Assembly: GCA_016935885.1 (NCBI GenBank)
Contig: JAFGQA010000149.1
Location: forward strand, 1-14,341
Source: Phycisphaerae bacterium
GTDB taxonomy: Bacteria; Planctomycetota; Phycisphaerae; UBA1845; UTPLA1
Direction of reading: 5' to 3'
DNA: 14,341 nt
The position numbers and the translations under genes are program-made. Below the pieces are notes generated by a model. It was not told where the DNA came from. It was given only the letters and a program-made list of their open reading frames with translations, and made no database searches. The first letter of the stretch is position 1. Every line of letters begins with the position of its first letter. Positions 1,428 to 14,231 of the stretch are shown piece by piece.

Positions 1428-4400
1428 TCACGCTTCCTCAAACCCGTAGGTCTCGAACTTCAGAGTGCGACAGTTCTCGGTCACGTCGCGGACGAGCTTC
1501 TCGGATGCGGCGTCCGGCAGATCAGCCCGGATCTCCAGAGTGACCTCGACATCGGCTCCGACAATCCCCGACAGATGCTGGACGACCTCCTCCGCAATTC
1601 GAGATGCATCGCGACCCAACCGCACCGGATCAAGGCGGACGGCCCCGTGAAACCTGCGTAATTGCGGAGCAGCGGCCGCTGGCGGAGTGAAATCGACATT
1701 AGACACACTACTTGCGCGGGCGGTCGGGTCTGTGCTGATCGGCAGCGCCTGACCGGCGTCAGCGGCTCTCGGCGTCGTTGTCTGCGATGCCGCGTCGGCC
1801 TCCAATTGCCGCATTGCCACATCCGGCTTAACCAAGACGCTCTGGCCGTCGATAAGCACCCGCCCGGCACTACCAGCCCGCAAACCCGTGTACCGCTTCC
1901 GCTGCTCATCCCAACCGTCGGCATACGCGAACGCCTCGGAATGCCACGTGAGAAGCCCCAAACCGTCCCGGATGCCCGCCAGCAGCACGTCCTCGTCTCG
2001 CAGCCGGGGAAGATACAGGTACTTCGCCACGTCCTCGGCAAGCTGTTTGACACCGACGTGATCGCCTCGCCACAAAGGCACCCGGTCCAGCTCATGCCGG
2101 AGCCGCGTGCCGCCAAGATCGATCATCAGCAGTTCCTCGTTCTTCAGCTTCTTGCACGCCCGAACGGCCAGCGCATCAGCTCCCTGCAAACGAATCTCGG
2201 TCCACTCGACCTTGCCTTTCGGGTCGGGCAGCTCTTCGCCTTCTTTTTTCTCCTGGCCGGGCACGAGCAGCCACTGGTACGTCTCAGGAATGCGGGCCTC
2301 CACCGTCTCGTCGGCGGACTTGGCTTTGGTGTCCGCCTGTCGGGCCTGGAACGGGTCCAGGTTCAGAGTCTCCCGGTCCCGCTGAATCGAGGACCAGGCC
2401 AAACACTGGCGGACCGCTTGCTGAAGCTCCTTGAGGCGGGTGGCGTCCGGCGCAAGGAAGACGATCGTGTTCCTGTAATTTCTCGGGCTCGATCCCCGCG
2501 ATTCCAGTATTGCCGACGCCTCCTTGCAGGCCGCGCTGTCCATCTGCTTGGCCACGTGTGGATACTCCGGCCCCAGGATCACCAGCCGCACTTCCCGTTC
2601 ATCCGGTACATCGCTGCTCGCGGCGCAGGCATGCACCTTCGAGAAATCTCCCCGCGTGCGGGCCTCATCCTTCACCCGCTTCTTGATCTCGTCCTCAACG
2701 TCATCGTCGCTCAACTGGCTGGCCCGGTCATCCGCCAGCCGCGCCACCGTCGGCTGCGTCGAGTACCAGAACCGCTTGCCGTCCACGTACAGGTACGTTG
2801 CCCGATCCGTCAGCCGCCGCAGCGCATCCCCGAAGGTCGCCACGCTCTCGCCCGGCTGAACACACCCGAGCCTGACCTGACGGTCCTCAATCCCGCGATT
2901 GGCTGCCCGCTGCGTGGGTGCGGAACCCATGTAGACCGTCCTGGCCACACGGCGACAGGCCGAATATCGCCCGAGATTTGGGTTCTCCCGGTCCAGGCTG
3001 AGTGGCAGCGAATGGGCTCCGTCCACGTCCTTCTCGATCACCGGCACCCAGGGATCATCCATGTACCGGGTCAACTCGAACTGCACCGCCGGATCGTCCA
3101 CGGGCACATTGGCAGGCAGGATCAGCAGGCTCGCATCCTGCCGCTCCCACAGCGAGTGGATCACCGCAGCCATGAGTCGCAGAACGCCCCGCGTCCGCTG
3201 AAACTTGTCCAGCGTGGACCAGTCGTTGTACAGCCGGTCGAACAACTCGGGGTGGATCGGGTACGCCGCCTTGATCCGCCGCTCGTAATCAGCCTCCCGG
3301 CACTCGGGCGGGAACTCCTGGTGCTGCGTCCCGTACATGTCGGCAAAGCCACGTGCCACGGCATCGCGAGCGACAAACAACTTCGGATCGGTAATCGGCT
3401 GGAACAGCCGACGACGCACAATCTCGAAACCCTCATCAGGGCTGGCCGGTCGCCACGACGACTCGACGCGTCCGATGGCGTTTTTCAACCGCGTCAGCGC
3501 CCTCTGTCCCCATTCCCCGCCGATTTCGTTGTCCGACGACGGCACGCTGACGACCAGCAGCGTGTTCTTGGCCCCTTTGGCACTCTCGCTGACCGTCTGG
3601 GCAAACGTGAATTGAGCATCGAATGTCCCGGCGGGCAGATCGCCATCATCGCGAAGCTGTCGGGCATACGCCACCCATTCATCAACGAGGATCAGGCAGG
3701 GCGAGAACTTGTTGAACAACTCCCGCAGCAAGTCGCCGGGGTTGGTGGCCGTCTCGTCCGCCTGCTTGACGATCTTGTATCCTTCCTTGCCGCCAAGTTG
3801 CCAGGCGATCTCGCCCCACATCGTCCGCACGACCGTCCCGTCCGGTTTCTTGTGCGGCTGGCCGGGCGAGATCTTCGTGCCGACGAAGACCGCACGCTTC
3901 ACGCCGGTGGGGACCCCTGCCCCAGCCTCCTGGAGCACCGTCTCGATTCCCGGCAGTTCCGACGCGGGAGTGCCGCTGAACAGGTGATACAGGGCCAGCA
4001 TCGAGTGCGTCTTGCCACCGCCGAAATTGGTCTGAAGCTCAACGACCGGGTCCCCGCCCTTGCCGCTGAGCCGCAGGATCGCGTTCTTCAGCAGTTGCTT
4101 GAGCCCTTCGGTGATGAACGTCCGGCGGAACAGCTCGGTCGGATGCTTGTACTCGTCCGAGCCCTCCTTCAGGTACACCTGCCACAAGTCGGCGGCAAAC
4201 TCGGCCTGCTGATACCGGCCGGAGGCCACGTCGGGGTGCGGGGTCACGATCTCACGCCAGGGTTTTAGCCCGCCCGCCGGTTTACCCTCGACTGCCGCCA
4301 CGGCGGTCTTGCGCATTTCGCTTCGCCGCTGCTCATCGAACCGAATCCGCAGCAATTCCTGCTTCTGTTTCTCGATCTCCTCGGACTCGTCCGCCGACAC

Positions 4401-4766
4401 GGCCGTGAGCAACCTTCCCATGCTGTCCAACGCCCGGTAGGCGTCGTCGCTGCTGAACGGCTCCTGGTGTGCCCATTTGTTCCGCGTATCGCGAAGCTCG
4501 CTGACCAGGCTGCGCTCGGCCTGCCCCAGCGTCCGGCTGAACACCGGGTTCCACTGGTTCCACATCACCCCCAGAAGGGTCTGAGTGTCCCAGTAGAGCT
4601 TCTTGCCCTTGCGGCCGCTAAGGCGGTCGTCGCGCTGGCCTTCCCGTGCTGCCTCTTCCCACTTGTCGCCGAGCGACGCCTTCAGTTCGCGCTCGACAAA
4701 CGGCTTCAGGCCCGTGTTGAGAAGCTCAAGGGCCTTGCCCACACGTTCATGATTCGTAATTGCCAT
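1428..4766 (-). CDS. DUF499 family ATPase with N-terminal Swt1-like HEPN domain
   Basis: This large ATPase (1112 residues) is a core component of helicase-methylase-ATPase (Hma-type) anti-phage loci. Residues 1-120 resemble the Swt1-like HEPN domain, with R95-N-K-W-A-H100 matching the RX4H motif. A charged helical linker follows (about 125-155). The P-loop ATPase core has Walker A FGGGKTHS at 248-255, a Walker B-like LILVDEW at 358-364, and a following strand TLLVVSVPSSDNE (402-414) typical of a sensor region. The long C-terminal half (about 450-1112) is the DUF499 body, with a low-complexity Ala/Thr/Pro stretch near residue 1000. The ATG at 4766 is the natural start because the HEPN helix begins within a few residues of it. 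There is no strong ribosome binding site, only GGGA about 10 bases upstream. In the family this protein sits beside DUF1156 methylases, as here, but a four-helix-bundle gene now separates the two. Confidence 0.93.
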   Translation of the reverse strand: MAITNHERVGKALELLNTGLKPFVERELKASLGDKWEEAAREGQRDDRLSGRKGKKLYWDTQTLLGVMWNQWNPVFSRTLGQAERSLVSELRDTRNKWAHQEPFSSDDAYRALDSMGRLLTAVSADESEEIEKQKQELLRIRFDEQRRSEMRKTAVAAVEGKPAGGLKPWREIVTPHPDVASGRYQQAEFAADLWQVYLKEGSDEYKHPTELFRRTFITEGLKQLLKNAILRLSGKGGDPVVELQTNFGGGKTHSMLALYHLFSGTPASELPGIETVLQEAGAGVPTGVKRAVFVGTKISPGQPHKKPDGTVVRTMWGEIAWQLGGKEGYKIVKQADETATNPGDLLRELFNKFSPCLILVDEWVAYARQLRDDGDLPAGTFDAQFTFAQTVSESAKGAKNTLLVVSVPSSDNEIGGEWGQRALTRLKNAIGRVESSWRPASPDEGFEIVRRRLFQPITDPKLFVARDAVARGFADMYGTQHQEFPPECREADYERRIKAAYPIHPELFDRLYNDWSTLDKFQRTRGVLRLMAAVIHSLWERQDASLLILPANVPVDDPAVQFELTRYMDDPWVPVIEKDVDGAHSLPLSLDRENPNLGRYSACRRVARTVYMGSAPTQRAANRGIEDRQVRLGCVQPGESVATFGDALRRLTDRATYLYVDGKRFWYSTQPTVARLADDRASQLSDDDVEDEIKKRVKDEARTRGDFSKVHACAASSDVPDEREVRLVILGPEYPHVAKQMDSAACKEASAILESRGSSPRNYRNTIVFLAPDATRLKELQQAVRQCLAWSSIQRDRETLNLDPFQARQADTKAKSADETVEARIPETYQWLLVPGQEKKEGEELPDPKGKVEWTEIRLQGADALAVRACKKLKNEELLMIDLGGTRLRHELDRVPLWRGDHVGVKQLAEDVAKYLYLPRLRDEDVLLAGIRDGLGLLTWHSEAFAYADGWDEQRKRYTGLRAGSAGRVLIDGQSVLVKPDVAMRQLEADAASQTTTPRAADAGQALPISTDPTARASSVSNVDFTPPAAAAPQLRRFHGAVRLDPVRLGRDASRIAEEVVQHLSGIVGADVEVTLEIRADLPDAASEKLVRDVTENCRTLKFETYGFEEA

Positions 4767-4780
4767 GTTTGAGTATCCCG

Positions 4781-4811
4781 TATTCAGTAGTCAGGAGTCA
4801 GAAGACAGAAT
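4781..4811 (+). repeat. Degenerate heptamer repeat block R1 (left inverted arm)
   Basis: Read on the plus strand this block is about four 7-base units: TTCAGTA, GTCAGGA, GTCAGAA and GACAGAA, ending in T. It lies in the opposite orientation to block R2 at 5176-5207 and matches it at 21 of 26 positions when the ends are aligned. It contains the TGA stop of the four-helix-bundle gene (4791-4793) and fills most of the gap before the DUF499 gene. Confidence 0.85.
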
Positions 4812-5198
4812 CGAACGCGCATACGCTTCGAGCAGCTTGCTGACTTCCTCCGCTTTCGTCATCACCTCGGTCGGATCGCCGTATTCCAGGTCTCTTGCCA
4901 GGATGAGATAATACCGTGCCTCCTCCAGCGACCCCTGCGCGATGTTCAGAAACCGCGACTTGTCCGGGCGGCCCTTCTTGCGGAACCCCTCCGCGATATT
5001 CGCTGGCACCGACACCGCCGCCCGACGAAGCTGCGAGGCCAGCCCGTACATCTCAGTCTTCGGGAAACGTTCGGTCAACTTGTACACATCGAGGACGAAG
5101 TGATGGGCCTTCTGCCAAACGATCAAGTCCTGAAAGCACCGAGCAGGTGCTCGCGCCCGCTCGACGGTCCCTCCTATTCTGTCTCCTGTCTCCTGCAT
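4791..5198 (-). CDS. Four-helix-bundle protein (23S rRNA IVP / S23 family)
   Basis: This 135-residue protein has the diagnostic family pattern: F-QDLIVWQKAH (22-32), FP-TE-YGLASQLRRAAVSVPANIAEG (about 45-71) and RFLNIAQGSLEEARYYL (about 82-98). The family comprises small four-helix bundles encoded in intervening sequences of 23S rRNA and in many scattered chromosomal copies; they are related to the Avd accessory protein of diversity-generating retroelements. Cellular function is unclear. The first 10 or so residues (MQETGDRI) and the last few (SSDS) are encoded by the flanking heptamer repeats, so the conserved domain proper spans about residues 20-130. The repeat provides AAGGAG five bases before the ATG. 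The gene lies 15 bases after the methylase stop and 24 bases before the DUF499 gene. The inverted repeats on both sides suggest that it arrived as a cassette and is a passenger, not a core defence component. Confidence 0.92.
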   Translation of the reverse strand: MQETGDRIGGTVERARAPARCFQDLIVWQKAHHFVLDVYKLTERFPKTEMYGLASQLRRAAVSVPANIAEGFRKKGRPDKSRFLNIAQGSLEEARYYLILARDLEYGDPTEVMTKAEEVSKLLEAYARSILSSDS

Positions 5199-5207
5199 TC
5201 TGACTCC
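5176..5207 (-). repeat. Degenerate heptamer repeat block R2 (right inverted arm)
   Basis: Read on the minus strand this block holds GTCAGAA, TGCAGGA, GACAGGA and GACAGAA, ending in T, with GGA before the first unit. It covers the start codon (5196-5198) and the first codons of the four-helix-bundle gene, and part of its ribosome binding site. Confidence 0.85.
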
Positions 5208-5209
5208 TT
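5204..5209 (-). promoter_or_regulatory. Ribosome binding site built from the repeat
   Basis: AAGGAG on the minus strand ends five bases before the ATG at 5198. It overlaps the outer edge of repeat block R2, so the repeat carries the translation start signal of the gene it flanks. This supports the 5198 start. Confidence 0.65.
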
Positions 5210-5213
5210 CTTC

Positions 5214-8200
5214 TCAAAACAACTCCGCCTGTGTCGGTTTCCGTTCCGCAGGGGCGGCCATCGCCAGTTTGGTCAATTCCGGCCAGGCGATGACCAGACC
5301 GTTGTAGGCCAGGGCTTCGTCTGCCCATTTCTTCCGCTCGCAGATCGTGTAGAGCCGATATGCCAGGTCGCGGGCGATCTCGGCCGTGCCGCCCAACTTA
5401 CGAAGCAGGGCTGCCGCGCCTGATTCACCTTCCTTGTCCAGGGCTCGAATCAAATACTGGGTCGCCTCCCAGACGGTGAACCGTGAGTCCTTACTCGGGT
5501 CCCATTCTGTCTTCTGTTTCCTGTCTCCTGACTCCTGCCCCCCCAATTCTTCCCTCTTCAACAACCGCACCTTGCCCGCACGGGCCTTGACCACGCCCGC
5601 TTCGACCAGTCCGTTGACGGCCGTGTTCTTCGCCTTGCTGAGCGTCTCGGCCACGCCGAACTGTCCTTCCTCCATGCCAAACTGCTCGAACCACGCCAGC
5701 GCCCACCGGGTGTCGGCGTCGAACTCGCCTTCCTGCTCGGCCAGGACTTCATCCAGTGCCTGGTTGATCAGGCCCAAGGCTGTCCGCACGGTCATCGCGG
5801 AGCCATCGGTCTCCATGACCTTGCTGTAGCGGGTGAAGACCGCCATGCCGGGACCAATGGCGGCTTGGGCCAGATCCACAGGGGCGATGCTTCCTCGCTG
5901 AAGGTTCCTCAGAGCCTCGGGCAATTCACGCTTCAATGCGTTGAGGAACTCCCTTCGGGTCGCTAACGCTGAATCTGATCGTTGTCTACAGGTGAGCAGC
6001 ACCGAGGAGGCCAAAGCACTAATGTTCTTCTTCAGATTGGCGACCAACTCGGTGCGAACTGGCCATGTCCCCGTGACAGCAAAGCCCGCTCGAATCAGTC
6101 CCTCAAGCATTGTCTCCCAGCCTGTGGACGCTGTTGCCGCCTCTGCCTGCTCGTCGTCGTGGCCGTTTTCGGTTTCCGTCTGTTTGAATGCGTAATAGAT
6201 AGGAAGCGGACAGTCATGCACATGGAACTGATACATTCGAGAAAACACCGTTCCCAGCCCAGCCTCGAAGAATGACTTTGCCTTCTCCTTGCTTCCACCG
6301 TGACGATACGGTGCAGCGACTAACTCCTGTGTCTTCGGAGTCTGAACGGTCGCAAACAGAGAGCGATACACATGGCCGATTGCTTTTCGCATCCAGCTGT
6401 AGAAGAAATCGCTCAGTTCTGCATAGGCGATGTTGTCATAGTATGGGGGGTCAGTACAAACAAGTGCTGAAGGCACCAGAGGTGTGGGAGCAGTGGCGTC
6501 GCGCTGCTCAGCATGGCCCATTGGTGCATTCTCCGGAACCCTCTCAAGCACCTCAGCTATACTCCCTGGAGTCAAACCAAACCCCCCGCCCGCGTCACTA
6601 AAGGGATTTGCTTCGGCGTAATTCCAGGTCATCGCCAATGCTTGGCGGCCAAAAGCCTGAGTCAGCCGATCCGGGTTGTTTTGCCAAGTTGCCTGCGTGC
6701 AGTTCGTGAGCGTGTTCTTATCAACACAAAACGCAAGGTATGTTGCGATGGCATCGGCATACTCCATGCCAAGCGAACTCTTGCTGTCTGTCGTAACTCG
6801 TTGTCGTGCGGCTTCAACCAGTTCGGCGAACGTTCCCAATGCCGATAGCTGCCGAGAGGTGAAGAGATCACCGAAGGTGTTCATTCCATACACGGGCGGC
6901 TGGAAATTGCGATGCTTCTTGGGCATTTCGCCATCCGGTCGCCAGGACGGGCGTGCGCTGAGCACCGCCGTCTCGTGTTCAGGGATCGGTGACAAATAGA
7001 TCCGCTCCCGGCCCGTGTCAATAACCATCGCTACAAGCCGTTCCTTCATATGTCCCGCACATGCTTCTGCGCGAATGTGGGTGAATGGCATCGAAACGCC
7101 TGTGAGTAGGCAACGTCCGCCTTTGCGGTCGACCGTTCCGCGATCTGCGTCGAAACCTGCAGCGGGCTTCCCACGCCGGACTACAAGGCTATAGCTTCTT
7201 TTGTCGCAATTGATTATGGGCTCAACCCATGTCTCACTGCCAGGCCGAGTACTCAGCCAGAAATTGCGAAACAGCGGAACATGTGCCTCCGCGCAAGCCG
7301 GATTCGGGCTGGGAACAGTTCTCGCCCACAGCCACGCAATGACCGCGAACTCCCCGTCGACATAGAGTTTCAGGTCTGGCCGATCCTTGGCCATTTCCTT
7401 CGTGATCTTGACCTTCGGGTACAGGTGCCCGATCCGCTTCTCCGCCTCGTCCCGTATCCACTTGCCGTAATACCGGACATCCTCGGCCAGCCCTTCCGCA
7501 CCATGCCAGGCCATCTTCTGGTCCGACTTCGGATTCACCGGCGGCTTGCCCGCGAACTTGGGTGGGATTTCGATAAGGGCCTTGGTGATCAGTACGGGCA
7601 CGGGGTTCAAGTCGCTACCGTAAGCCCGCAGGCCCAGCCGCTGGGCTTCCAGCGGAATCGACCCGCCACCGCAGAATGGGTCCAGCACCGGCGGGGCATG
7701 TTCGGCCAGGAAGGCGTTCACTGCCTCCGGCCGGGCGTTCATCGTTACCATATCCCACGCAATGGTCTTGTCCGGCGGCCCCCAGGAACGTGGCGTCTTC
7801 GGTCCGGCCGGAGCGGAGCCGTGAGCGGAGGAGCCAGAACTCAGAATACAGGAGTCAGAATGGGAATCGCCCGTTTCTCGCCCACCTCCTGTCTTCTGTC
7901 TCCTGTCTCCTGACTTCTCGTACACCACCACATCCTTCTTCAGTTCCCCGGTTTCCAGCTTCCGCGAGGCCACGCACCGAGCGATCTCCGCGCGGGCCGC
8001 GTTGATGACCGTCGGATTATTGGAGTTCTCCCACTGAACCAGTTCTTCGATTAGGTCGAACAGTTCCGCCCGTTTCTCACCGGCCCGCTCCTCGTCCACC
8101 GTTCCATCCGCCTTGTGGTAGGCCGGGTCGCTATCAGGATCGTCTACCAGCGAAGCGAACAGCACCGCCCGGCAAGCCGCCAACGGCCGCCGCGCCCACC

Positions 8201-8318
8201 ACAGGTGCAGCGTGGACGGATGCCCATGCCGGATGGACTTCTCCCGCGCCGCCGCCTTGTTGATCGCCTCCAGCGGCAAGGCCACTTCAATCAGCTTCTT
8301 GCGGTACGATGCGGTCAT
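5214..8318 (-). CDS. DUF1156 family DNA methyltransferase with repeat-derived inserts
   Basis: This is a 1034-residue S-adenosylmethionine-dependent DNA methylase of the Hma/DUF1156 type, expected to modify host DNA and so mark self. The N-terminus (residues 6-60, RKKLIEVALPLEAIN to LHLWWARRPLAACR) is the DUF1156 signature. Motif I, DPFCGGGSIPLEA, is at 213-225, followed by SDLNPV at 235-240. The catalytic motif IV, DPPYYD, is at 623-628, and STGWETMLEGLIRAGF follows downstream. Motif I precedes motif IV, as in amino-methyltransferases of the N6-adenine or N4-cytosine kind. The protein ends in QAELF, a normal-looking terminus. Two stretches look foreign: about residues 133-173 and 924-940, both translated from degenerate heptamer repeats (SGDRRQKT, ESGDRKQKT). 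They keep the frame and interrupt no motif. The middle of the gene has lower GC than the ends. Start and stop overlap the upstream nuclease gene by four bases (ATGA). Confidence 0.93.
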   Translation of the reverse strand: MTASYRKKLIEVALPLEAINKAAAREKSIRHGHPSTLHLWWARRPLAACRAVLFASLVDDPDSDPAYHKADGTVDEERAGEKRAELFDLIEELVQWENSNNPTVINAARAEIARCVASRKLETGELKKDVVVYEKSGDRRQKTGGGRETGDSHSDSCILSSGSSAHGSAPAGPKTPRSWGPPDKTIAWDMVTMNARPEAVNAFLAEHAPPVLDPFCGGGSIPLEAQRLGLRAYGSDLNPVPVLITKALIEIPPKFAGKPPVNPKSDQKMAWHGAEGLAEDVRYYGKWIRDEAEKRIGHLYPKVKITKEMAKDRPDLKLYVDGEFAVIAWLWARTVPSPNPACAEAHVPLFRNFWLSTRPGSETWVEPIINCDKRSYSLVVRRGKPAAGFDADRGTVDRKGGRCLLTGVSMPFTHIRAEACAGHMKERLVAMVIDTGRERIYLSPIPEHETAVLSARPSWRPDGEMPKKHRNFQPPVYGMNTFGDLFTSRQLSALGTFAELVEAARQRVTTDSKSSLGMEYADAIATYLAFCVDKNTLTNCTQATWQNNPDRLTQAFGRQALAMTWNYAEANPFSDAGGGFGLTPGSIAEVLERVPENAPMGHAEQRDATAPTPLVPSALVCTDPPYYDNIAYAELSDFFYSWMRKAIGHVYRSLFATVQTPKTQELVAAPYRHGGSKEKAKSFFEAGLGTVFSRMYQFHVHDCPLPIYYAFKQTETENGHDDEQAEAATASTGWETMLEGLIRAGFAVTGTWPVRTELVANLKKNISALASSVLLTCRQRSDSALATRREFLNALKRELPEALRNLQRGSIAPVDLAQAAIGPGMAVFTRYSKVMETDGSAMTVRTALGLINQALDEVLAEQEGEFDADTRWALAWFEQFGMEEGQFGVAETLSKAKNTAVNGLVEAGVVKARAGKVRLLKREELGGQESGDRKQKTEWDPSKDSRFTVWEATQYLIRALDKEGESGAAALLRKLGGTAEIARDLAYRLYTICERKKWADEALAYNGLVIAWPELTKLAMAAPAERKPTQAELF
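5504..5538 (-). repeat. Heptamer repeat block R3, in frame in the methylase
   Basis: Five 7-base units are read on the minus strand: GCAGGA (short by one base), GTCAGGA, GACAGGA, AACAGAA and GACAGAA, ending in T. They are translated in the methylase frame as QESGDRKQKTE (about residues 927-937). The residues on either side (LKREEL before, WDPSKDSRFTVWEATQ after) look like continuous family sequence, so the block reads as an insertion of about 12 residues. Confidence 0.8.
7835..7917. repeat. Inverted pair of heptamer blocks R4a/R4b, no cargo
   Basis: R4a (7835-7861, plus orientation) and R4b (7885-7917, minus orientation) are inverted copies of the same repeat. Arms 7837-7861 and 7893-7917 match at 20 of 25 positions around a 31-base loop, so RNA or single-stranded DNA could fold into a long hairpin. 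The pair lies in frame in the methylase gene, between VVYEK and GPPDKTIAWDMV. It resembles the ends of the four-helix-bundle cassette with the gene removed. Confidence 0.75.
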
Positions 8319-9429
8319 TTCTTGCGGCCCTTTCGAGGCTTGCCCCGCCGGGTGCCCGGCTTCGGCGGTTCGATCGCCGGGCGAGCGGTCTCGGCCGCGG
8401 CCAGTTCATAGAACTCGTGAAGCTTGGCTTGCAGGAGCTTCCTGGCGGGCAAACGGGTCTGGTACTCGGCGACGAGCGTCGGCGAAACGGCCCGGCTCAA
8501 GGCGTATTCGACAACTTCGCGGTCCTTGGTCGCGCACAAGAGCACGCCGATCGACGGACGCTCGTGCGGCTTCTTCACGTCGCGATCCAGGGCTTCCAGG
8601 TAGAATTCCAGCTTGCCCAGGTGCTCGGGCTGGAACTCCTCGACCTTCAGCTCGATGCCCACGAGGCAATTGAGGCCGCGGTGAAAGAACAGGAGATCGA
8701 TGGCGAAGTCGCGGCCGCCGACCTGAACTCCGTACTCGGTGCCGATGAAGCAGAAGTCCCGGCCCAACTCGATCAGGAATTGCTTCAGCTTCTCGACCAG
8801 GGCATGCTGAAGGTCCGACTCGGAATGATCGGGCGGGAGATCGAGGAACTCGACCACGTAGCTGTCCTTGAACACCTCGCCAGCGCCGGGGTGCAATTCT
8901 CTCAACGCCGTTGATAGTTTTGGGGGCGACAGGACGGTCCGCTCGAAGAGGGCGCCGTTCAGTTGACGCTCCAGTTCCCGCTTGCCCCATCGCTCGCGCA
9001 AGGCCATGCGCAGGTAGAACTCGCGCTCTTCGTCGCGCTTGCTGCGACTCATGATGAGCAGGTTGTGCGTCCAGGACAATTCTCGCACCAGTGGTGCGAG
9101 TTTTGGCAGACCGCGGTAGGTCTCGAAAAACTGCATCATCCGCCAGAGATTGCTGGCCGAAAAGCCTCTCGCATTGGGCTGACGCCGGTTGATGTGGTCG
9201 GCCAGTTCCTCGACGGTGCCCTGCCCCCAGCCGTCGGCCGCGACGCGCTTGCTGATGCGCTCGCCAATCTGCCAGTACAGGTCAATCAGCACGGTGTTGA
9301 CGGCCGACATGGCCCGCGACCGGGCGGCGTCGATCAGGCGGATAATCTCCTCGAAGTCGGCGGATGGTGCCGGAATCGCGGTCGCTCGCCGAGCCAGATC
9401 TCGCTGTTTTGGCTTCCTGGTCGATCTGC

Positions 9430-9433
<4 letters not shown>
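8315..9433 (-). CDS. DUF1016/YhcG family PD-(D/E)XK nuclease
   Basis: This 372-residue protein has the standard two-domain layout. Residues 25-165 form the DUF1016 N-terminal domain (IDLYWQIGERI at 50-60, GFSASNLWRMMQFFETY at 90-106, LSWTHNLLIMSR at 119-130). Residues 190-340 form the YhcG nuclease domain. The PD-(D/E)XK core is visible as FAIDLLFFHR, with D246, and IELKVEEF, with E261 and K263; the following KLEFYLEALD is also typical. Family members are predicted DNA nucleases found in defence islands and beside restriction-modification genes. The basic tail (last 15 residues, RRGKPRKGRKK) probably helps to bind nucleic acid. The ATG at 9433 overlaps the helicase stop by ATGA, and its own stop overlaps the methylase start the same way, so the three genes are translationally coupled. 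It may be the DNA-cutting component of this locus; many DUF1016 proteins also occur alone. Confidence 0.93.
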
Positions 9434-12933
<3,500 letters not shown>

Positions 12934-13011
12934 AGGAGTCCACCGCGTCATGTATCCCGCTTCACTGCGGGTCCGACCATCCACCCCACGGCAGGACGGC
13001 CATTTTCGGCA

Positions 13012-13409: not shown

Positions 13410-13428
13410 ACCCCCAACCAACGGGGGT
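13410..13428 (-). terminator. Small GC hairpin at the end of the upstream gene
   Basis: A six-base-pair stem (ACCCCC with GGGGGT) closes a seven-base loop and overlaps the stop codon of the upstream gene by one base. No clear T-run follows on the minus strand, so it is at most a weak intrinsic terminator. It marks the boundary between the upstream gene and the defence operon. Confidence 0.35.
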
Positions 13429-14192
13429 TAAACCGGTTGCGGTCGAATCAGCGGACAATCCGGTGGCTCACAGCCGGCGATCTCGCGAAACATCGCTCCG
13501 TTGACCATGTGGACACAAACCTGCCCGAAGTTCGACAGATCCCAGGTCTCGGTGCCGTACGGGTCCGGCTGGATCTGCTTTCGTATCTGCCCTCTCGTTG
13601 TGAGGGTCATTTCACAACCCCTGCCGCCACAGTCCCTGCTTGTGAGCCTGCCTTTCCGCACCACGCGATCACGAAACCGCCCCGGCCTCGGCTCCAGCAC
13701 CGTCAGCCGGAGGCTATCCAACCCTCTCCAACTGACAGACCGGGCTTCATCAGGGTCTTCCGTCCTTGGTGGCATGGCTGCGAACTGCCTGACCAAGCCG
13801 TCGGCGGTGCTGAAACCGACCAAGGCGGATTGGGGCGGGCAGACCAGATAATCCTGCGGGTCGCTTGTCAGATGATTGCCCAACGGCTTGCCGGTCAGGG
13901 CATTGACGCCGCCCACAGCAATCCGAACAGCATTTGGCTTCCACGGCCGAGCCGAGAAACTGATCCACATCGCCTCATGGGGATGGATGGGTATGAACAC
14001 ACTAGGGCAAGCCCGCCATGACTTAGGAACACGCTCGATGTGGTCCTCGACTCGGAAGATGGGGAACGGCTCCAGATCCACTGACAGCGGATGCTCCTGT
14101 CCATCAGCCGGAATACGTAGGGTCCGCATGAACCGCACAGTCATGCTTGCACCGAAGTGAATCTCGTCGCGTGTGATTTCGACATCAAGCAT
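13428..14192 (-). CDS. Conserved protein of unknown function
   Basis: This 254-residue protein has blocks I associate with a widespread uncharacterised bacterial family, common in actinobacteria: RTLRIPADGQEHPL (23-36), HEAMWISF (72-79), AVRIAVGGVNALTGKP (88-103), PQDYLVCPPQ (112-121), GLVRQFAAMP (132-141), DPYGTETWD (210-218) and FREIAGCEPP (235-244). No catalytic motif, signal peptide or membrane segment is visible. From memory, relatives continue past the PP motif into a short aromatic tail; here the protein stops about ten residues after it, so the end may be shortened. The ATG at 14192 has GGAGG eight bases upstream, which makes it a better start than the in-frame TTG at 14216. A hairpin and then a promoter separate it from the defence operon, so it is probably an independent transcript, though it could be a further module of the same island. 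Confidence 0.85.
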   Translation of the reverse strand: MLDVEITRDEIHFGASMTVRFMRTLRIPADGQEHPLSVDLEPFPIFRVEDHIERVPKSWRACPSVFIPIHPHEAMWISFSARPWKPNAVRIAVGGVNALTGKPLGNHLTSDPQDYLVCPPQSALVGFSTADGLVRQFAAMPPRTEDPDEARSVSWRGLDSLRLTVLEPRPGRFRDRVVRKGRLTSRDCGGRGCEMTLTTRGQIRKQIQPDPYGTETWDLSNFGQVCVHMVNGAMFREIAGCEPPDCPLIRPQPV

Positions 14193-14200
14193 CGTTGAAT

Positions 14201-14205
14201 CCTCC
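14201..14205 (-). promoter_or_regulatory. Ribosome binding site deciding the 14192 start
   Basis: GGAGG on the minus strand lies eight bases before the ATG at 14192. It is the strongest Shine-Dalgarno match in the window, and it lies inside the coding stretch that the longer TTG start would need. Confidence 0.75.
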
Positions 14206-14231
14206 GCCTGCCCCAATCAGCATCAAATGAA

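Follow-up and report, generated by a model that had tools for sequence, protein, structure and literature searches.

The window (the whole stretch of 14,341 nucleotides that was analysed) contains an Hma defence operon with all genes on the minus strand and, at the junction between HmaB and HmaC, a short gene of the S23p family, which is known chiefly from 23S rRNA. The gene is enclosed by two arrays of heptameric units, and further arrays of this kind are found inside HmaB. The relevant features are:

1428-4766, minus strand: HmaC (DUF499 ATPase with HEPN_Swt1), downstream neighbour of the cassette
4784-4811, minus strand: downstream arm R1, a heptad array inverted with respect to R2, containing the S23p stop codon
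4791-5198, minus strand: S23p/23S_rRNA_IVP ORF (TIGR02436 four helix bundle), 135 aa, with PF05635 and TIGR02436 profile matches
5176-5214, minus strand: upstream arm R2, a heptad array of the GGAGTCA/GGAGACA type on the gene's strand, containing the S23p start codon
5214-8318, minus strand: HmaB (DUF1156 adenine methylase), upstream neighbour of the cassette and host of the two other arrays
5504-5540, minus strand: solo heptad array without S23p, in frame inside HmaB, encoding ..GGQESGDRKQKTE.., absent from the orthologues L007 and L334
7831-7861, minus strand: 3' arm of a heptad hairpin that lacks S23p, within HmaB, forming an inverted pair with 7886-7918
7886-7918, minus strand: 5' arm of this hairpin, forming an inverted pair with 7831-7861
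8315-9433, minus strand: YhcG/DUF1016 PDDEXK nuclease (PADLOC PDC-S02) inside the Hma operon
9430-12984, minus strand: HmaA, SNF2 helicase with NOV_C domain, of the Hma operon

Two ORFs on the minus strand that border the operon (13428-14216 and 576-1391, 262 and 271 aa) have no match at E 0.001 in either Pfam or PADLOC.

The S23p element and its arms

The preliminary description had placed an IVP-family gene between the methylase and ATPase genes, which is confirmed by scores of 127.8 bits against PF05635 (cut-off 33.8, E 2.4e-37, residues 23-124) and 120 bits against TIGR02436 (cut-off 24, E 5e-35), both above the curated cut-offs. The same protein falls below the cut-offs of the Avd profiles (31.2 bits vs 80 for NCBIfam Avd and 21.9 vs 40 for bAvd, PF22296). 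No reverse-transcriptase domain was detected among the seven window proteins scanned. The element does not reside inside a 23S rRNA gene, and nothing in the window reaches the gathering threshold of Rfam.

The units of the arms are 7 nt long and of the GGAGTCA, GGAGACA and GAAGACA type, and the upstream array encodes about the first eight residues of the protein. The best inverted pair (4784-4811/5176-5203) extends over 28 nt with 23 paired positions and represents, with slightly different ends, the same repeat that was previously described as an inverted match at 21 of 26 positions. Its ungapped score of 14 was reached in none of 500 dinucleotide shuffles of the 150 nt taken from each side (mean 7.1, maximum 12). 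The period-7 self-similarity amounts to 0.77 in R1, a value attained by 0 of 2000 shuffles, and to 0.51 in a 50-nt stretch of R2, attained by 29 of 2000. The ORF is thus surrounded by pairing ends, as are the S23p ORFs of 23S rRNA intervening sequences.

The earlier proposal of a cassette that inserts between genes needs correction in that arrays are not restricted to gene junctions, since they are also found in frame inside HmaB of the window, and since HmaB in L007, a contig of a Chromatiales MAG, contains frame breaks and stops with arrays close to the breaks. At the position of HmaB that matches the hairpin 7831-7918, an array is present in L007 and none in L334, and the HmaB protein matches in L111-L118 break at about residues 114-195, near this hairpin. 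Extra arrays were also observed inside HmaB of L007 at ~2670 and ~3460, where the window has none and where the alignment shifts frame nearby.

Recurrence of arms at S23p loci

Many of the 80 loci from public genomes for which both ends were read, which belong to many phyla, contain a purine-rich heptad array before the S23p gene and its inverse after it. These are the best 80 of 185 confirmed S23p loci and, since one of the six seed peptides (MQETGDRI) overlaps the array, the sample leans to arrays of the window's type. The pooled autocorrelation of the arms of 81 loci has maxima at 7, 14 and 21 nt upstream as well as downstream of the gene, which are absent in control DNA, with period-7 values of 0.392 upstream and 0.365 downstream compared to 0.267 in 72 control stretches. 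In the same 81 loci, the summed complementarity between the upstream and downstream arms of each locus equals 1429, compared to 988 ± 35 with permuted partners, and is reached in 0 of 5000 permutations. Many of these loci, which come from different genomes, have a common unit, and only 16 of 81 rows therefore place the own partner first or equal first. The 67 arm pairs whose units are not of the GRAGNCA type show a period of 7 as well (0.49 vs 0.25-0.34 at lags other than multiples of 7), a set that is restricted to pairs scoring at least 13 and that includes Balneola orthologues. Most arms have a period of 7, but a minority show 8 or 9; units of 8 or 9 nt were recognized by eye in the arms of L256, L264 and L146.

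A second sample was composed of top-scoring family-HMM matches in the genomes of the 80 loci or in their phyla, as was the comparison of nine genomes described below. In this sample, from which L184 was dropped (28 of 29 kept) and which does not contain L374, L380, L391 and L393, arms score at least 13 in 26 of 28 Acidobacteriota loci and in 10 of 16 S23p-like loci of Bacteroidota. None of ten strong matches to bAvd (E 1.2e-17 or better), which are presumed Avd proteins of DGRs, carries arms, and with 332 of 5000 permutations attaining the summed score of their own pairs, this set contains no clear arm signal.

Selection on the protein and the nature of the stem

The S23p protein is under purifying selection where tested, in Balneola, with dN/dS ranging from 0 to 0.15 in ten sets of orthologues (dS being 0 in one pair), and it is thus kept in these organisms. 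The gene is usually oriented as its neighbours, being located on the same strand as both of them in 47 of 64 loci and opposed to both in two. In this count neighbours were defined as long ORFs, and 64 of 80 loci were scored, with the neighbours being too far in four cases and a flank or neighbour lacking in 12. Such co-orientation fits a life inside operons, though it is no evidence for the suggestion made at the outset that insertion causes no polar damage.

The predominance of the sense orientation would also be expected from an element that operates at the level of RNA, where the arms form a stem in the sense transcript that is cut by RNase III as in the intervening sequences of 23S rRNA, with excision of the RNA as the function and with selection on the RNA preserving the complementarity. 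A precedent is provided by the intervening sequence of Coxiella, whose S23p gene is preceded by tandem heptamers (GACAGAT/GACAGAA) in variable number and whose RNA is excised by RNase III (PMC4990558); it sustains the resemblance to 23S rRNA intervening sequences that had been noted at the outset. The fold predicted for the element of the window also has the two arms paired, but the folding energy of the whole element is unremarkable (z -1.31), and at least one cassette, in L396, is antisense to its operon. Moreover, strong selection for a sense stem should favour G.U over A.C mismatches, whereas we counted 135 of the former and 121 of the latter (p 0.42) in 3610 aligned columns of 107 elements. 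These are the 107 of 124 elements that passed the score limit, with L052, L053, L055, L072, L074 and three Balneola genomes omitted as repeats. In the absence of a significant G.U excess, a sense-RNA stem is not favoured, although there may be a weak preference for G.U, and we consider an element acting on RNA to be a doubtful explanation. The data fit better with a DNA hairpin, or with a replication process in which one arm is the template for the other, than with a stem in the sense RNA.

Arms are private to their locus

In all-versus-all comparisons within each of nine genomes, the upstream arm is best matched by its own downstream arm in 66 of 77 S23p loci, with the best pairing found elsewhere in 11. 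Within a genome, the arms are thus mostly complementary only to their own partner. Arms of different copies in one genome show mean scores of 7.5-8.8, compared to 7.2-8.5 in shuffled sequences, and the observed pairing with the own partner was reached in 0 of 5000 permutations in seven genomes and in 86 and 45 of 5000 in two genomes with five loci each. Four related Balneola genomes contribute 38 of the 77 loci; the set includes only part of the S23p copies of each genome and leaves out elements located less than 150 nt from a fetched end. The unit sequence varies widely among loci (AGATGTY, TTTCAGT, CAGCTAA, GGTGACA and more). The expectation that the flanking heptamers would be encountered at other IVP loci was hence correct with respect to the arrays, which recur, and incorrect with respect to their sequence, with no single heptamer being shared and each locus having its own unit. 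A universal heptamer is unsupported, as the unit differs from locus to locus within a genome, and a transposon with shared terminal inverted repeats was rejected as the general case, as copies within a genome have no common terminal repeats.

Filled and empty sites

Orthologous sites were found both with and without the cassette, among others on cyanobacterial plasmids. Site 1 is filled in three records (two mutually identical ones from Trichormus and one from Scytonema) and without insert in at least six records of about 97% identity, three of which were read. The insert, which comprises 428 bp in Trichormus and 414 in Scytonema, converts the empty sequence AAAAA-GTAAT-TAACAAAT into AAAAA-GTAAT-cassette-GTAAT-TAACAAAT, with GTAAT as 5-bp repeat, and a truncated remnant is found at this site in L402. 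Sites 2 to 5 provide further present/absent pairs, with site 4 being filled in L394, L410 and L411 and empty in five records read. Target duplications, which had been named as a feature to look for, are clear at site 1 only, with none clear at sites 2 and 3 and a 5-bp duplication with one mismatch at site 5, whereas site 4 is ambiguous because the arm itself ends in a similar sequence. A unit of ~419 nt with similar ends was found at three unrelated plasmid sites at 78-82% identity. As side observations, an S23p cassette with GTAGGGA heptad arms is located antisense between ribonucleotide reductase genes of Nostoc edaphicum (L396, 2507-2875), a site that carries no cassette in Calothrix L407, and two Rfam matches of a solo hairpin in L394 are both sub-threshold and were not accepted as indicating family membership.

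Plasmids L416-L422 (for example L417:395-575) contain a repeat of ~180 nt with S23p-like heptad arms and a different, apparently non-coding core. It was detected in 46 plasmid records, of which 29 match 80% or more of its length, and in 137 places including partial ones; GATAA directly follows in five of six distinct copies read, and no Rfam family matches at E 0.1. In plasmid pNPM1 of Nostoc N6 (L411), this repeat splits the S23p gene of site 4 (from about 1160) without target duplication.

The discrete 428-bp insertion with its GTAAT repeat, the ~419-nt unit at unrelated sites and the abundance of the ~180-nt repeat with its similar arms would all be in line with a conventional non-autonomous transposon or MITE whose terminal inverted repeats are used in trans by a host transposase. 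However, a sequence-specific transposase would need common ends, and the locus-private arms are not accounted for by a transposon whose ends are fixed. In addition, the insertion of the ~180-nt repeat into S23p of L411 was not accompanied by a duplication as seen at site 1, and a match to a Y1 transposase is lacking in 19 of 75 S23p genomes, and such an origin thus appears unlikely.

Orthologous sites also differ in Balneola. At one of them, S23p is present in two species, and the other two contain 60 unaligned nucleotides without S23p between flanks of 95-96% identity, a spacer that appears heptad-like by eye. At another site, a different S23p with different arms is found in one of four species. 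Most Balneola sites read are common to two to four species, so the cassettes at these sites appear to be long resident.

Arrays without the gene and their distribution

Arrays also exist without the gene. S23p is absent from all 35 regions that were read around GRARNCA arrays in three Acidobacteriota genomes, picked for their many array matches, so arrays either arise or persist without S23p; other genomes do have arrays adjoining S23p genes, as for example G403 C4 around 30307-30624. GRARNCA arrays were found in 22 of 75 S23p genomes and in three of 74 others (p 4e-5; size-stratified odds ratio 9.4, p 2e-4). In 53 of the 75 genomes no match of three GRARNCA units was detected, since the pattern recognizes one unit type only. 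Genes for reverse transcriptases and Y1 transposases are modestly commoner in S23p genomes, with size-stratified odds ratios of 2.8 and 2.6. All these associations disregard phylogeny, and the search for transposases covered the Y1 family. With a reverse-transcriptase match in 32 of 75 S23p genomes and none in 43, this enzyme is not obligatory in the same genome, although many assemblies may be incomplete, and no mobilising enzyme was identified among the reverse transcriptases and Y1 transposases searched. The reversed control pattern of the array scan is not clean, as it occurs 415/438 times in the S23p genome G391 (Acidobacteriota), which points to another abundant heptamer family.

These arrays bear on the view that there is no mobility, with S23p being an ordinary operon gene and the arrays being repeats that originate from polymerase slippage and accumulate in intergenic gaps. 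Many bacteria contain heptameric repeats in excess, for which an origin by slippage has been put forward (PMC4692102, PMC4679880), and both the 35 regions without S23p and the many sites common to several Balneola species are compatible with this proposal. Yet slippage alone does not generate inverted, locus-matched pairs around one gene family that spare bAvd, and it accounts neither for filled and empty sites at about 97% identity nor for the Balneola site at which one of four species carries another S23p with other arms, which renders this view improbable.

The Hma junction

At the HmaB-HmaC junction, S23p is found in the window and in L007 (L119 being the L007 contig), which also contains the only S23p match in a tblastn search of Hma-type loci. 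Empty sites at orthologous DUF1156-DUF499 junctions, as had been anticipated, do exist: among six junctions read, S23p is absent in five (L111 and L112, where the alignments of HmaB and HmaC end about 40-60 nt apart, and L336, L338 and L341), and L334, the top-scoring HmaB match, has retained an array together with roughly ten initial codons of S23p, as judged by eye from its likeness to L007. We thus found neither an absence of the repeats from other IVP loci nor a gene that is invariably present at this junction without repeats, and the preliminary description as a whole is partly supported. An independent insertion of the window and L007 cassettes is not demonstrable, with their clade not being rejected (p-AU 0.838), and both may go back to one vertical event. 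Although S23p is co-oriented inside the operon in the window and in L007, its role as a functional subunit of the Hma system is very improbable in light of the junctions where it is missing or a fragment, its restriction to one contig among the Hma-type loci searched by tblastn, its presence in many unrelated operons and the lack of a match of the window protein to any PADLOC model.

Discussion

Our analysis has identified the S23p gene of the window with its flanking arrays as a representative of a general unit, which is mobile or was formerly mobile. In keeping with the proposed general cassette that ends in repeats and encodes no transposase, it recurs in many phyla and is present or absent at orthologous junctions. 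On balance we favour, with reasonable though not high confidence, its interpretation as an insertion cassette, in which a small Avd-like four-helix-bundle gene is placed inside two inverted arrays of 7-nt repeats and which lives in host operons. This cassette would operate in the manner of the intervening sequences of 23S rRNA that encode S23p, to which it is probably related. It belongs beside them and differs in its place and in ends that are defined by structure. With the rRNA elements of Leptospira and Coxiella it has in common the protein family, heptamers upstream, pairing ends and a sporadic distribution, and the 428 nt of the Coxiella element compare to inserts of 428 and 414 bp at plasmid site 1 (PMC4990558). 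In contrast to them, the cassettes described here reside in protein operons, their arms vary between loci and solo arrays occur without the gene.

A mechanism that would account for these properties can be outlined from sequence comparison. The purine-rich upstream heptads (GGAG..) may supply a ribosome-binding site for S23p at any landing place. The two arms might fold into a DNA hairpin or cruciform, whose shape rather than sequence would be recognized by S23p, and they could stay matched if, in the folded state, one of them serves as template for the other, through template switching and slippage in 7-nt steps. The joining enzyme would be supplied in trans by the host, and loss of the gene would leave solo arrays. 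The S23p of Xanthomonas, a member of a widespread 'four helix bundle protein' family with no known function, is a homopentameric ring (PMC4990558). More tentatively, it is conceivable that these units constitute a class of insertion elements with structure as ends, whose inverted arrays of ~7-nt units are made afresh at each locus, kept matched and recognized by the S23p ring through their shape. A considerable share of the heptameric repeats of bacteria that lack an explanation would then be due to the gain and decay of such elements and to their solo arrays, and the rRNA intervening sequences would be a special case that has landed in rRNA.

Heptameric repeats are known from separate reports on several lineages, including GGGAATC in Xanthomonas, where they form inverted pairs in 70 and 75 cases, GGGGAYT in Nostoc (PMC4692102), TAACTGA in Beggiatoaceae (PMC4679880) and MTYCTGA at paired sites in Geobacter (PMC2700814), and their origin is not agreed. 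The arrays of this study resemble them in their 7-nt units and in their intergenic, sometimes intragenic, location. Whereas the accessible text of these reports does not tie the repeats to S23p, the arrays described here bound S23p genes and co-occur with them across genomes, thus joining both phenomena. Among the literature matches listed, from a search that covered few subscription journals, none links S23p cassettes outside rRNA to private heptad arms.

MITEs and REP-type palindromes are short, intergenic and hairpin-forming sequences without transposase. S23p cassettes share these features, but their ends are private to the locus and they carry a conserved gene under purifying selection. 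Ends that are private and nevertheless matched would be unusual among mobile elements, as the structure would be kept while the sequence drifts. With the unit and its empty sites defined, the plasmid sites that are filled in some records and empty in others of about 97% identity offer testable substrates. The Avd proteins of DGRs (bAvd, PF22296) are distant homologues of S23p, and unlike the cassettes, the ten strong bAvd matches have no arms. The likeness between PF05635 and Avd has been noted (PMC10053308), and four-helix-bundle genes are listed among those unique to strains of Arthrospira (PMC8700078). As a further observation made by eye, the Balneola loci L141, L142, L145, L148, L163 and L171 contain a similar hairpin-like motif, TGTAAGGA...GTCT(T/G), upstream of S23p.
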